From Saprospiraceae bacterium (GTDB lineage Bacteria > Bacteroidota > Bacteroidia > Chitinophagales > Saprospiraceae), in the NCBI GenBank assembly GCA_020630735.1, contig JAHDIP010000017.1:1-47899 (forward strand): a stretch of 47,899 bases of DNA, read 5' to 3'. Below the pieces are notes generated by a model. That model searched no databases. It saw nothing but the letters and a program-made list of their open reading frames with translations, and had not been told where the DNA came from. Within the stretch, counting starts at the first letter, position 1. The number at the start of each line of letters is the position of its first letter. The translations under genes were made by a program, and so were the position numbers. Positions 21,039-25,531 of this stretch are shown piece by piece.

Positions 21039-22670
21039 ATGATGAAAAAGGTTTTACTATTCTTTGCATTTCTAATGACAGCTCAGGTTGCTTATCTCCA
21101 ATCGGTACCTTCTCGACCAACTAATATTGTTGATGAAATAGATGAAGTTGCTTTAATTGCTGACCCTATCGAATCTATAGCTGCTACTATCACTAGTGCT
21201 GACTTAAAAAAACACTTAACGATACTTGCCTCGGATGAATTCGAAGGGCGCGAGACGGGAACAGAAGGAAATAAAAAGGCGGCACGCTATATTGCTAATC
21301 AATTTGAGCAATTTGGTTTACCAAAAATAGGTGAAGAAGATACCTATTTTCAAAATGTTATTTTCTTGACAGAACGTTGGGATGAAGTAGGAATGAATAT
21401 TAATGATCAGGATTATAAACACCTTTGGACATACTATACGTTTCCGAATTATAACAGTCACCAACCTTCAATTACAGCAGATGAAGTTATATTCTTAGGT
21501 TATGGAATAGATGACGAAAAATATAGCGATTATAAAGGCGTAAATGTAAAAGATAAAGTACTATTGGTTTATCCAGGTGAGCCTGTTAATAAAGACAGTA
21601 TTTCGTGGGTGACGAAAAGCAAAAAACAATCAGAATGGTCTTATGACTTTATGAAAAAATTTAAAGCTGCAAAGAAACATGGTGCTAAAGCAATTTTGAT
21701 TATTGATCATAATTTACAGAAAAACCTTAACCAATTCAGAAGCTACTTATTAAGCCCACAATTGACGCTTGGAAAAGGAGAAGAACCTGAATTGAACTTT
21801 GCAAATAATGTTTTCATTTCTTCAGATATTGCAAAAACGATTATCGGAGACCAGTTTAAAAAAATAGTAAAAGCTCGAAAGTGCATTCAGAAAAAAGGAC
21901 GTTCTAAAAGTGTAAAACTTCCGTGTAAATTTTCACTTGTACAAAAGAAAAATACGAGCAAGCTTGTTGGCGAAAATGTACTTGGTTATATCGAAGGTTC
22001 TGATCCTCAAATGAAAGATGAAGTGGTTATCGTTACTGCTCATTATGACCACTTAGGTAAGCGAGGTTCTGGAATTTATAACGGTGCCGATGATAATGGC
22101 TCAGGTACATCAACTGTACTGGAAGTGGCTCAAGCGTTAGCCGAAGCAAAAAAACAAGGTTTAGGTCCACGTCGTAGTGTTTTGGTAATGCCTGTAACTG
22201 GAGAAGAAAAAGGACTTTTAGGTTCACAGTTTTATACAGAAAAACCAGTATTCCCTATCGCTAATACTGTCGCTAATATTAATGTCGATATGGTCGGGCG
22301 TGTAGATGAAAAATATAAGGATAATCCGAACTATATCTATGTAATCGGTTCCAATCGTTTAAGTACAGAACTACATGAAATAAATGAAACAGCTAATAAA
22401 GAATATACTAATTTGGTATTAGATTATACTTACAATGCGGAAGATGATCCTAACCGATATTATTATCGTTCGGATCATTATAACTTTGCTTCAAAAGGAA
22501 TACCTGCTATATTTTATTTCAACGGAACTCACAAAGATTATCACCGTACTTCTGATACAGTCGAAAAGATTAATTTTGAAAAAATGGAGATTATCGCCAA
22601 ACTTGTTTTTCATACAACTTGGGAACTAGCCAATAGAGATAAACGAATAGAAGTAGATGTGAAACAGTAA
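21039..22670 (+). CDS. Secreted M28-family zinc aminopeptidase with inserted PA domain
   Basis: The product has 543 residues. A signal peptide (MMKKVLLFFAFLMTAQVAY) precedes the M28 fold, which is interrupted by a protease-associated region (about 125-285, including VKDKVLLVYPGEPVN). The zinc ligands are visible: His335 in VTAHYDHLG, the bridging Asp in NGADDNGSGTS (351-352), the general base and ligand in TGEEKGLLGS (389-390), Asp in NVDMVGR, and His in YYRSDHYNFASKGIPAIF. It would trim N-terminal residues from peptides in the periplasm or outside the cell. There is no type IX sorting domain at its C-terminus. Confidence 0.9.
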   Translation: MMKKVLLFFAFLMTAQVAYLQSVPSRPTNIVDEIDEVALIADPIESIAATITSADLKKHLTILASDEFEGRETGTEGNKKAARYIANQFEQFGLPKIGEEDTYFQNVIFLTERWDEVGMNINDQDYKHLWTYYTFPNYNSHQPSITADEVIFLGYGIDDEKYSDYKGVNVKDKVLLVYPGEPVNKDSISWVTKSKKQSEWSYDFMKKFKAAKKHGAKAILIIDHNLQKNLNQFRSYLLSPQLTLGKGEEPELNFANNVFISSDIAKTIIGDQFKKIVKARKCIQKKGRSKSVKLPCKFSLVQKKNTSKLVGENVLGYIEGSDPQMKDEVVIVTAHYDHLGKRGSGIYNGADDNGSGTSTVLEVAQALAEAKKQGLGPRRSVLVMPVTGEEKGLLGSQFYTEKPVFPIANTVANINVDMVGRVDEKYKDNPNYIYVIGSNRLSTELHEINETANKEYTNLVLDYTYNAEDDPNRYYYRSDHYNFASKGIPAIFYFNGTHKDYHRTSDTVEKINFEKMEIIAKLVFHTTWELANRDKRIEVDVKQ

Positions 22671-22688
22671 AGTAGTGGTATCGCTTAA

Positions 22689-22735
22689 AACAAAAAATGG
22701 TCAATCGAAATATATTCGATTGACCATTTTTTGTT
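22689..22735. terminator. Bidirectional terminator behind the M28 peptidase
   Basis: A perfect 21-bp stem runs from 22689-22709 to 22715-22735 around ATATA, with core ATGGTCAATCG and A/T-rich base giving T-tracts on both strands. It would stop the peptidase transcript and also any minus-strand RNA from the structured block to its right. Confidence 0.9.
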
Positions 22736-22757
22736 CCTTCAAAAAGAAGAAAAAAAA

Positions 22758-22806
22758 GGTGAGATAAGGACCAGTTTTACCCCCCAATAAACTGGTCTTA
22801 CTCACC
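22758..22806. repeat. Stem-loop A of the paired G6/C6 hairpins
   Basis: GGTGAG (22758-22763) pairs with CTCACC (22801-22806), and GACCAGTTT with AAACTGGTC. The loop on the plus strand is TACCCCCCAATA (C6 at 22780-22785). The core is almost identical to stem-loop B, while the outer stem differs and stays complementary. Confidence 0.8.
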
Positions 22807-22925
22807 ACTTAAGGCCACTTCTGACCTAAAGATTTTTGCATATTTATCCCTTCACGATACTGATTCACACAGTGGGGGGAATCATACGGGGGGTAGCAAA
22901 AATCATTTTTTAAAGTTCTTTAGTT

Positions 22926-22976
22926 AAGAGAGTATAAGACCAGTTTTACCCCCCAATAAACTGGTCTCACTCTCTT
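22926..22976. repeat. Stem-loop B of the paired G6/C6 hairpins
   Basis: AAGAGAGT (22926-22933) pairs with ACTCTCTT (22969-22976), and GACCAGTTT with AAACTGGTC. The loop C6 is at 22949-22954. It has the same core and loop as stem-loop A but a different outer stem, a compensatory difference on both arms. Confidence 0.8.
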
Positions 22977-23136
22977 TATAAGACCTTTCGGTCTTATTAT
23001 CTTCAGCCTCCTAAAAGGCATTGCTTCAATTTAATATCGGGGGGATATTCTTTATGAAAAGAGAATAAATAAGTATTCTTTTATAGCTTATAATTGTTTT
23101 CTCATTTCTATTTAAGTATATCCAAGAACTATGCCA

Positions 23137-23388
23137 TTAAGAAAAAACAACATCTGTTGAAACTGCTTCTTTTGTACTTGCTATAGTTACGTCAGATCCC
23201 GATGCTTTAGCAATAGAAAGTTGCTTAAGCATGTTCTTATATTCATTATAATCAGTAAAATTTCCACAAGAAATGATCTCCTTATTAACATCTTCTACAA
23301 AGACCTGAAAGCACAAGTGATCTCCTTTATAGAAGAACTTGTAAAAGCACTTTTTGATCATTGATCCGTTTATAATAGTATCATTCAT
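23137..23388 (-). CDS. Small protein of unknown function
   Basis: I start it at the ATG at 23388 (83 residues); the open frame extends to a TTG at 23409. The sequence (MNDTIINGSMIKKCFYKFFY at the start, then DHLCFQVFVEDVNKEI and DYNEYKNMLKQLSIAKASG) suggests a short alpha/beta cytoplasmic protein. I do not recognise a family. It is the nearest gene upstream of the candidate structured RNA on the same strand, so the RNA could be its 3' untranslated region. The start lies next to the inverted repeat at 23391-23418. Confidence 0.55.
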   Translation of the reverse strand: MNDTIINGSMIKKCFYKFFYKGDHLCFQVFVEDVNKEIISCGNFTDYNEYKNMLKQLSIAKASGSDVTIASTKEAVSTDVVFS

Positions 23389-23418: not shown

Positions 23419-23528
23419 AGCAAGAATGAAGCCATTCTATTTGTAAAATAAATATTATTTAAAATAAAATATGTTTTAGTAATTTTTGACAGTATAAATA
23501 GCCTTCGAAAATGGTTTATTCCGTCATT

Positions 23529-23545
23529 TTGGCAGAAAAAAGGCA
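23529..23545 (+). promoter_or_regulatory. Possible sigma-54-type (-24/-12) promoter upstream of htpG
   Basis: TTGGCAGAAAAAAGGCA has GG (23531-23532) and GC (23543-23544) separated by exactly 10 bases, and a TTGGCA -24 block. The -12 block lacks the usual TTGC. It lies 124 bp before the htpG start. Short motifs of this kind occur by chance. Confidence 0.25.
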
Positions 23546-23668
23546 ATGGCATAGCATTTGAAAAATGAATAAATACAAACGTTTGAGCTTTAGGTTAGTT
23601 ATAAACTGCCAAATTGCCAATAGTTGAAAAAATATTTTTAAATAATTATTAAAACAAAAAATAGGAAC

Positions 23669-25531
23669 ATGCAAAAAGGTAATATTTCTGTACAAACGGA
23701 GAATATTTTCCCGATTATCAAAAAATTTCTTTATTCAGATCAAGAAATCTTTTTACGTGAGTTAATTTCTAATGCAGTAGATGCTACCTCAAAACTCAAA
23801 ACGTTATCTTCTAGAGGCGATTATAAGGGCGAACTAGGTGATACGAAAATTGAAGTAATTCTAGATAAAGAGCAAAAGACACTGACGATAAAGGATAAAG
23901 GGATCGGAATGACGGAGAGCGAAGTAGAAAAATACTTAAACCAAGTGGCTTTCTCTAGTGCTGAAGATTTTATTAAGAAATACAAAGACGAAGCTAGTAT
24001 CATTGGGCACTTTGGTCTAGGATTTTATTCTGCCTTTATGGTAGCTGAAAAAGTAGAAGTTAGAACGAAGTCGTATAAAAAAAGCGCTGGAGTAACGTGG
24101 ATATGTAGTGGAGATCCTGAGTATACGATCGAAAAGAATGATAAAAAAGATCGTGGTACTGAGATTATACTTCATGTATCTGACGATGCTGTAGAGTATT
24201 TAGAGCAAGGAAGAATCAATGAGTTGCTGACTAAATATTGTAAGTTTTTACCTGTAGAAATAAAGTTTGGTACGAAGACAGAAACTGTCTACGAAGGAGA
24301 AGGAGATGATAAAGAAGCAAAAGAGCATGAGATTGATAACATTATCAATAATACAATGCCTGCTTGGAAGAAGTCTCCACGTAGTCTAAAGGATGATGAT
24401 TATAAAGCATTTTACAATGAGCTTTATCCGTTTAGTCAACCACCATTATTTTGGATACACCTTAATATAGACTTTCCATTTAATCTAACAGGGATTTTAT
24501 ACTTTCCAAAATTGAACAATAGTGTTGAGGTTCAAAAAAATAAAATCCAGTTATATAGCAATCAAGTATTTGTAACGGATGATGTGAAAGCAATTGTTCC
24601 TGAATTTTTAACCTTATTGCATGGTGTTATTGATTCTCCAGATATTCCGTTGAATGTTTCTAGAAGTTACTTACAAAGTGACCAAAATGTTAAGAAGATT
24701 TCTAGCTATATCACTAAGAAGGTAGCCGAAAAGCTAAATAATTTATTTAAGAAGAAGCGTGATGAATTTGAAGAGAAATGGCAAGACTTAAGTGTATTTG
24801 TGAAGTATGGAATGCTTTCGGAAGAAAAATTCCATGATAAGGCTGTAAAGTTTGCGATGCTTAAAAACGTTGAAGGAAAATTAGCTACTATTGAGGAATA
24901 CAAAGAGAAAATAAAAGCAACTCAAACCGACAAACATGGCAAGATTGTCATGTTGTATACAAATAATGTAAACGAGCACTATAGCTTTATCGAATCGGCT
25001 AAAAATAAAGGATACGATGTTTTAGAAATGGATACAGTAATAGATAATCACTTCGTTCAACATCTAGAACACAAATTGGGCGATGTTACTTTTGTACGTG
25101 TCGATTCGGATACTCCTGATAATTTGGTGCAGAAAGATGAAGTAGTGGAGTCGGTACTGAATGAAAAAGAAGAAACAAAAGTGAAGGAAATTTTTGAGGC
25201 TCAAATGCCTGCAGCAGGAGCTTCAATTATGTTGAAGCCACTATCGCCTGATGATCAACCAGTAATTATTACTCGTCCAGAGTTTATGCGTCGAATGAAA
25301 GAAATGCAAGCCCTTCAGGGAATGTCATTTGGTGATATGCCAGATTCGTACAATGTAGTTATTAATACAAACCATGAATTAGTAGCGAATAAATTACTGA
25401 AAATGAAGAGTAAAGAAAAGAAAGATGACTTCGCGAAGTATCTATATGAGTTAGCGATGCTAAACCAAGGTATGCTAAAAGGAGCTGACTTAACAGCCTT
25501 TATCAATCGAAGTATAAACTTTTTAAAATAA
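23669..25531 (+). CDS. htpG: Molecular chaperone HtpG (Hsp90 family)
   Basis: The product has 620 residues. The N-terminal GHKL ATPase domain has FLRELISNAVDATSKL (catalytic Glu and Mg-binding Asn), IKDKGIGMTESEVE, and IGHFGLGFYSAFMVAEKV (lid and G-box). The middle domain has GILYFPKLNNSVEVQKNKIQLYSNQVFVTDD and SPDIPLNVSRSYLQSD with the conserved catalytic-loop Arg. The C-terminal dimerisation domain ends LTAFINRSINFL. There is no MEEVD tail, as in all bacterial forms. It assists folding of client proteins in the cytoplasm. It is a single-gene unit. Confidence 0.97.
   Translation: MQKGNISVQTENIFPIIKKFLYSDQEIFLRELISNAVDATSKLKTLSSRGDYKGELGDTKIEVILDKEQKTLTIKDKGIGMTESEVEKYLNQVAFSSAEDFIKKYKDEASIIGHFGLGFYSAFMVAEKVEVRTKSYKKSAGVTWICSGDPEYTIEKNDKKDRGTEIILHVSDDAVEYLEQGRINELLTKYCKFLPVEIKFGTKTETVYEGEGDDKEAKEHEIDNIINNTMPAWKKSPRSLKDDDYKAFYNELYPFSQPPLFWIHLNIDFPFNLTGILYFPKLNNSVEVQKNKIQLYSNQVFVTDDVKAIVPEFLTLLHGVIDSPDIPLNVSRSYLQSDQNVKKISSYITKKVAEKLNNLFKKKRDEFEEKWQDLSVFVKYGMLSEEKFHDKAVKFAMLKNVEGKLATIEEYKEKIKATQTDKHGKIVMLYTNNVNEHYSFIESAKNKGYDVLEMDTVIDNHFVQHLEHKLGDVTFVRVDSDTPDNLVQKDEVVESVLNEKEETKVKEIFEAQMPAAGASIMLKPLSPDDQPVIITRPEFMRRMKEMQALQGMSFGDMPDSYNVVINTNHELVANKLLKMKSKEKKDDFAKYLYELAMLNQGMLKGADLTAFINRSINFLK

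Follow-up and report, generated by a model that had tools for sequence, protein, structure and literature searches.

A conserved structured RNA with six-G hairpin loops beside htpG in Saprospiraceae, a candidate stress RNA

In the window (the whole stretch of DNA analyzed, 47,899 bases), runs of at least six G or C occur five times, and all five lie in one intergenic element, flanked by an M28 peptidase gene (21039-22670, plus strand) and a small open reading frame (23137-23388, minus strand), with htpG farther on. When the 309-base segment holding the runs was shuffled 20,000 times, it never contained more than two. What does such an element encode, and what could read its homopolymer runs? 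An earlier note on this DNA had described hairpins at 22758-22806 and 22926-22976, a GNRA-capped hairpin at 22978-22997, and C6 segments at 22874-22879, 22888-22893 and 23039-23044, and each of these lies where it had been placed. The rarity of such runs, likewise claimed there, is borne out by the five being the sole ones in the window, and the claimed exact complement to the hairpin loop is confirmed, as one C run lies within UACCCCCC, which is fully complementary to the loop GGGGGGUA. The parts of the locus are as follows (R1 is the covariance model introduced below).

22689-22735, no strand assigned: perfect bidirectional terminator of 21 bp, separating the M28 peptidase gene from the RNA (sequence)
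22749-23110, minus strand: predicted non-coding RNA of about 360 nt, its extent drawn from the promoter-like box and the U-tract
22750-22757, minus strand: U8 tract after hairpin A1, putative intrinsic-terminator tail (sequence)
22758-22806, minus strand: hairpin A1, terminal, loop UUGGGGGGUA (R1 match of 89.3 bits, E 1.9e-16 in its own genome)
22810-22829, minus strand: hairpin B1, GGUCAGAAGUGGCC (fold, covariation)
22831-22839, minus strand: 3' arm of stem P1, GCAAAAAUC (pairing across 25 modules)
22874-22879, minus strand: C run 2 (sequence, C-run enrichment)
22888-22893, minus strand: C run 1, inside UACCCCCC, the exact complement of loop GGGGGGUA (sequence)
22896-22904, minus strand: 5' arm of stem P1, GAUUUUUGC (pairing across 25 modules)
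22926-22976, minus strand: hairpin A2, loop UUGGGGGGUA, without a U-tract (fold; R1 match of 80.9 bits)
22978-22997, minus strand: hairpin B2, GACC-GAAA-GGTC, GNRA loop (fold)
23033-23049, minus strand: hairpin AATATC-CCCCC-GATATT, whose loop holds the 5'-most C run, 23039-23044 (fold)
23122-23136, minus strand: sigma54-type -24/-12 box TGGCATAGTTCTTGG, a putative promoter from which the RNA is predicted to start near 23110
23137-23388, minus strand: small ORF of 83 amino acids, upstream of the RNA in the same direction, an optional companion (homologues in 29 of 90 regions)
23523-23535, no strand assigned: partial palindrome CTGCCAAAATGAC, possible regulator, operator or activator site beside the htpG box (related palindrome in 64 of 72 regions)
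23547-23561, plus strand: sigma54-type box of htpG, TGGCATAGCATTTGA (TGGYAY-N5-TTG pattern)
23669-25531, plus strand: htpG (Hsp90), divergent neighbor (Pfam PF00183)

The element is built of repeatable units, in which a P1 stem around C runs is followed by hairpin B and then by hairpin A. Hairpin A1 was not listed by a consensus terminator scan, which admits loops of 3-8 only.

Fold, coding strand and distribution

The minus strand from 22680 to 23110, a stretch that takes in the terminator at 22689-22735, folds at -140.1 kcal/mol, versus -91.9 kcal/mol for shuffled sequences (z -8.8). Related copies were compared in alignment A1, which holds 69 copies out of 71 rows, those of L027 (Deltaproteobacteria) and L032 (Neomarinimicrobiota) having been left out as chance matches of the DNA pattern. 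Among the 26 pairs of the two hairpins, 22 showed changes on both sides. Cells with such double changes numbered 207 versus 50.0 after shuffling, and 95.3% of all cells were paired, compared with 85.8% for shuffled partners and 38-49% for slid versions; these loci are related, so that counts over them are not independent. The hairpin B helix (helix 1 of the alignment) was changed on both sides in 8 of 8 pairs. The outer stems of the two hairpins in the window, whose difference had been read as compensatory, belong to these covarying stems.

Two signs distinguish the strands. Of 1,779 cells, 221 form G-U on the minus strand versus 9 A-C cells, which would be G-U on the plus strand only. T runs of at least five follow the last hairpin in 61 of 91 cases, compared with 10 for the opposite strand and 15% after shuffling (fixed-window count); for inner hairpins the figure is 24 of 58, the remaining 34 having none. 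The two signs agree and favor the minus strand, as had been judged from the GNRA hairpin and the terminal T-tract. Comparison among copies thus supports both fold and strand, and on this basis we take the element to be a conserved structured RNA encoded by the minus strand.

Transcription in the opposite direction would give an RNA with C6 loops resembling the actinobacterial 6C RNA, since both loops read UACCCCCCAA on the plus strand, which itself folds better than shuffled sequence (22740-23110, z -5.7). This reading was rejected as hardly credible: the G-U asymmetry, the U-tracts and the promoter-like boxes all favor the minus strand, and the 6C covariance model was not among the six Rfam matches found in the window up to E 1, while no Rfam family reached its gathering score. 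6C RNA of Actinobacteria is a small RNA whose hairpin loops carry a six-base C run, and the function of this homopolymer is stated as unknown (PMC4046766). Both are small RNAs whose hairpin loops expose six identical bases in a row. They differ in that the 6C loops are C runs and the strand transcribed here has G6 (the A loops of the minus strand are G6, not C runs), and the present RNA further differs in its tandem arrays, its htpG linkage, its sigma54-type box and its phylum. Given the opposite base, the other phylum and the missing Rfam match, 6C RNA is the closest analogy in form and is not proposed as kin.

A DNA search matched 7 of 60 genomes, the own genome included. Scanning named genomes for the pattern yielded 49 stretches, all in MAGs, and 47 of these have Saprospiraceae, Saprospirales or broader Bacteroidota names. 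The earlier note had suggested searching related genomes with a covariance model of the stems. Such a model, R1, built from hairpins B and A, matched 129 of 398 Saprospiraceae genomes and 44 of 112 genera. In a 395-genome sample of the class (at least six family members in the sample, stricter Infernal filters), its three matches were all Saprospiraceae. R1 misses some carriers. Among 24 R1-negative genomes, htpG was found in 23 (G019 gave no match), and 21 were usable, having at least 900 nt upstream of htpG (L137 and L146, with less than 400 nt, were set aside); G6-loop hairpins facing away from htpG were present in 9 of these 21, and none was found in the other 12. The claim of a structured minus-strand RNA conserved in relatives is therefore upheld by covariance-model matches, covariation and G-U asymmetry alike.

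No known class had come to mind in the earlier note, and Rfam 15 agrees, as no family reached its gathering score either in the window or in ten other loci. The window gave six weak matches with E of 1 or less, five of them overlapping the perfect terminator; the best was Qrr (31.3 bits, E 0.0016, gathering score 50), over a stretch that includes this terminator. Among the matches listed for the open-licence literature, to which most subscription papers do not belong, no description of the RNA and no RNA regulator in Saprospiraceae was found. Together, these observations point to a lineage-specific RNA family, carried by many Saprospiraceae next to htpG, and to an undescribed stress RNA. What is new is a structured RNA family without an Rfam 15 match that position and promoter type tie to the protein-folding stress regulon.

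The two hairpins, nearly identical and 169 bp apart, could also be the ends of a non-autonomous mobile element of the IS200/IS605 or REP type, as had been proposed alternatively. We rejected this outright, its probability being negligible. Dispersed copies were not found, as the element occupies one place in its own genome by DNA search (a second row was the terminator palindrome read backwards), and the two R1 matches in that genome both lie in the element. Among the matches listed, those of any one genome are grouped in one place; the exceptions are G016, G140, G208 and G308, each with matches on two contigs. The neighbor gene is mostly the same, and no phage or plasmid match was obtained.

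Several contigs end in or just after arrays (C1 and C62 of G016, with L003 and L009; L102; L097). Since arrays break contigs in this way, array copy numbers are lower bounds, and tandem units are probably undercounted.

Linkage to htpG, promoter-like boxes and the small ORF

Among 72 unique arrays, htpG is divergent from the RNA in 63. Nine of these 63 arrays had been fetched by htpG itself (its upstream regions were found by tblastn), so that the fair linkage count is 54 of 63. In the nine arrays without htpG, three hold merely 130-815 nt upstream; the real exceptions, without htpG in 1.4-2.5 kb upstream, are L094, L104, L105, L106, L111 and L122, which suggests that the locus can move or that htpG can be replaced. 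In two of them, L104 and L105, the small ORF is still present. The left neighbor of the RNA varies between loci. The 72 unique arrays differ from the 72 htpG-linked loci used in the counts below, because the two sets were made non-redundant by different hairpins.

Promoter-like boxes face both ways, toward the RNA and toward htpG. For the RNA, a -24/-12 core on its own strand (TGGYM-N7-YG[CGA], within 320 nt before the first hairpin) was present in 44 of the 72 loci and missing in 28, versus means of 3.2 (maximum 10) and 3.7 (maximum 8) in mononucleotide and dinucleotide shuffles. The same pattern occurred on the other strand in 17 of 72, some of which should be the box of htpG itself, as short regions include it. 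A stricter form, TGGYA-N8-GC (GG-N10-GC), was found in 19 of 72 loci versus 1.2-1.4 in shuffles and 2 on the other strand; the box at 23122-23136 ends in GG, not GC. On the htpG strand, TGGYAY-N5-TTG was found in 69 of 72 loci (dinucleotide shuffles: mean 0.5, maximum 4). A palindrome near CTGACAAAATGACG accompanies it in 64 of 72 regions (dinucleotide shuffles: mean 1.0, maximum 5). A regulon-wide role of this site is not supported in the own genome, where CTGHCAAAWTGDC is matched exactly at two places, of which the second lies within a coding ORF.

RpoN (PF04552) is encoded in 59 of 60 genomes, the own genome included, and both an upstream -24/-12 box and a genomic RpoN are thus found, as for sigma54-dependent small RNAs. 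The Proteobacteria have trans-acting RNAs of this type in Qrr, CrcZ and GlmY/GlmZ, which resemble the present one in being small intergenic RNAs behind a -24/-12 promoter and with a 3' terminator. Homology to Qrr is not accepted, its score of 31.3 bits lying below the gathering score of 50.

A precedent is given by Flavobacterium psychrophilum, where mapped starts with sigma54-type promoters lie ahead of htpG, dnaK, groESL, clpB and lon, and also of a putative regulatory RNA, Rfp36 (PMC9723704). The likeness is that htpG lies behind a -24/-12 promoter and that a putative regulatory RNA shares this promoter class; Rfp36 is at another locus than htpG and is set beside the present RNA by description only (same source). 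The source also places the start of two lipoprotein genes (TSS 2117336) 118 bp from that of htpG (TSS 2117454). The boxes, RpoN and this precedent together suggest that the RNA belongs to the protein-folding stress regulon, and we infer that it would be produced under protein-folding stress together with htpG.

The earlier note had left open whether the RNA stands alone or is the 3' part of the small gene. As a 3' UTR, the hairpins would protect or regulate the 83-aa message, or be processed from it. In the window, the stop codon of the ORF directly abuts the -24 box at 23136, and homologous ORFs of the same orientation were found upstream in 29 of 90 regions (L104 and L105 had been added since the ORF had been seen there, and L153 and L154 are one genome), making the ORF a frequent companion and not a necessary part. 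Each of the two also occurs alone, the RNA for example in L052, L054 and L091-L093 and the ORF, with no hairpin, in L153, and a promoter-like box lies between them. Box and separate occurrence favor a stand-alone RNA, the first of the two options, and make the 3' UTR distinctly unlikely.

The ORF family has the consensus LITKFxYKxNxLCFQILL...EFxDYxEYKK. The 83-aa protein has no Pfam or NCBIfam match near the curated cut-off. Its AlphaFold model (pLDDT 83.5) consists of strands and one helix, with no Foldseek match at E of 0.001 or less and second-look Z scores of up to 6.2 among varied folds. A role as RNA-binding partner was considered and found no support. A type III toxin-antitoxin layout as in ToxIN, with tandem RNA repeats upstream of the toxin gene and a terminator between them, was not found either, as the repeats here lie downstream of the small ORF and the ORF is present in 29 of 90 regions. 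In L153, where the ORF lies upstream of htpG and no G6 hairpin was found, a stem and then T8 follow the ORF.

The six-G loop and its possible partners

In the 72 htpG-linked loci, with one to four G6 hairpins per locus, 116 of 118 hairpins have exactly six Gs, and in 108 of 118 TA follows directly. The hairpin finder accepted five to seven Gs, then T or A, then A, T or C; the T or A after the G run is therefore partly imposed. Since G6 is part of both the first search pattern and R1, a less biased test of the loop comes from the R1-negative genomes, and there all 13 hairpins had six Gs, in stems whose sequences differ widely. Such constancy of a loop over changing stems marks a contact surface. 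An exact six-G loop kept in this way is an unusual constraint and raises the question of what reads GGGGGGUA.

If the element were nothing but an elaborate, duplicated transcription terminator, with G6 favored for some folding reason, the U-tracts after 61 of 91 last hairpins would be accounted for. We consider this quite improbable, because no T run of five follows 34 of the 58 inner hairpins, the B hairpins covary, P1 with its C runs recurs, and we know of no terminator requirement for exactly six Gs followed by TA, as seen in 108 of 118 hairpins.

The C runs provide a candidate partner. Outside the G6 hairpins, the RNA strand holds 51 runs of at least five C versus 5.1 expected (maximum 13), an approximately tenfold enrichment, and only 2 G runs versus 4.7 expected. 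The C runs are present in 27 of 72 loci and absent in 45, and their presence follows hairpin number, with 7 of 9 loci that have at least three hairpins, 11 of 24 with two and 9 of 39 with one. Between hairpins (33 runs; one outlier, L030, at 889 nt from the next hairpin, was omitted), they lie 105 +/- 16 nt before the next G6 and 87 +/- 32 nt after the previous one, and the tighter distance to the next G6 suggests that they form part of the following hairpin's unit.

In 25 aligned modules (of 48 extracted, chosen by eye for a shared layout), the C runs sit within the P1 stem (GAUUUUUGC / GCAAAGAUC). There, 91.6% of cells are paired, compared with 88.9% when shuffled and 48-60% when slid; some covariation is seen, two of five measures not exceeding shuffling in these 25 modules. 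Two of the C6 runs had been placed in hairpin loops. Such stems can be drawn for some copies, the window included, but over 65 related C runs the placement does not exceed chance, a closing stem of at least four pairs being found in 39 (shuffled flanks: mean 31.9, maximum 43). The bases next to the C runs do not carry the complementarity on into the UA that follows the six Gs.

The enrichment, although confined to 27 of 72 loci, makes a G6:C6 contact plausible; it could not show as covariation, because the loop is invariant. From these sequence patterns, a contact in cis appears likely as a feature of array-bearing forms, and not a universal one. In a stronger version, G6 loops and C6 tracts, several of each in one molecule, would join within and between copies through G:C loop contacts of six bases, so that a self-assembling stress RNA formed a multivalent network or scaffold made alongside Hsp90 upon protein misfolding; we regard this as unlikely. 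If C tracts do read GGGGGGUA, this would be an example from nature of programmed RNA-RNA assembly.

Most single-hairpin loci lack C runs, and the conserved function of G6UA must then rest on a shared partner, either an RNA in trans or a protein. Were it a protein, the repeated G6UA hairpins could titrate or scaffold it, with the C runs only tuning the fold. Titration of an RNA-binding protein is the mode of CsrB/RsmZ, whose GGA loops bind CsrA, and of CrcZ. The present RNA resembles CsrB/RsmZ in carrying several copies of one loop motif and differs in the motif, which is GGGGGGUA and not GGA, the repeated loops being G6, mostly followed by TA. Such a sponge would fit the multivalent like loops (one to four per htpG-linked locus), the constancy of the loop over changing stems, and the 30 of 39 single-hairpin loci without C runs. 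It leaves unexplained why C runs are enriched tenfold on the RNA strand, and there is no candidate protein, the small neighbor being encoded in 29 of 90 regions only. We therefore hold the protein sponge to be possible but doubtful.

The reading that we favor, with modest confidence, is a sigma54-transcribed stress RNA, divergent from htpG, that acts in trans through multivalent G6UA loops on a C-rich partner. Comparison across loci supports its RNA fold, its strand, the family, the htpG linkage, the six-G loop and the promoter-like boxes. Stress would activate sigma54 promoters at both ends of this intergenic region, with Hsp90 made in one direction and the RNA in the other. The RNA would start near 23110, at the sigma54-type promoter facing away from htpG, fold into one to several B-A units, and end at the last hairpin (A1 here) and its U-tract, near 22749. 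Several like G6UA loops, each with an exposed GGGGGGUA, would be offered to the partner, and we infer that these loops contact it in trans; in array-bearing species, part of the contact may be made in cis, with C runs on the same molecule or on a second copy of it.

As for trans targets, UACCCCCCAA was found in three genomes at ten places outside arrays, with no common gene or position seen. Pairing of G6 with the anti-Shine-Dalgarno end of 16S rRNA was dropped as a candidate, since selection for that complement would keep GGAGGU, not six Gs. In the minimal form, seen in L126 and L152, the box TGGTATCAAAATTGC lies 61 nt before a single G6 hairpin, and the RNA would then be near 100 nt.
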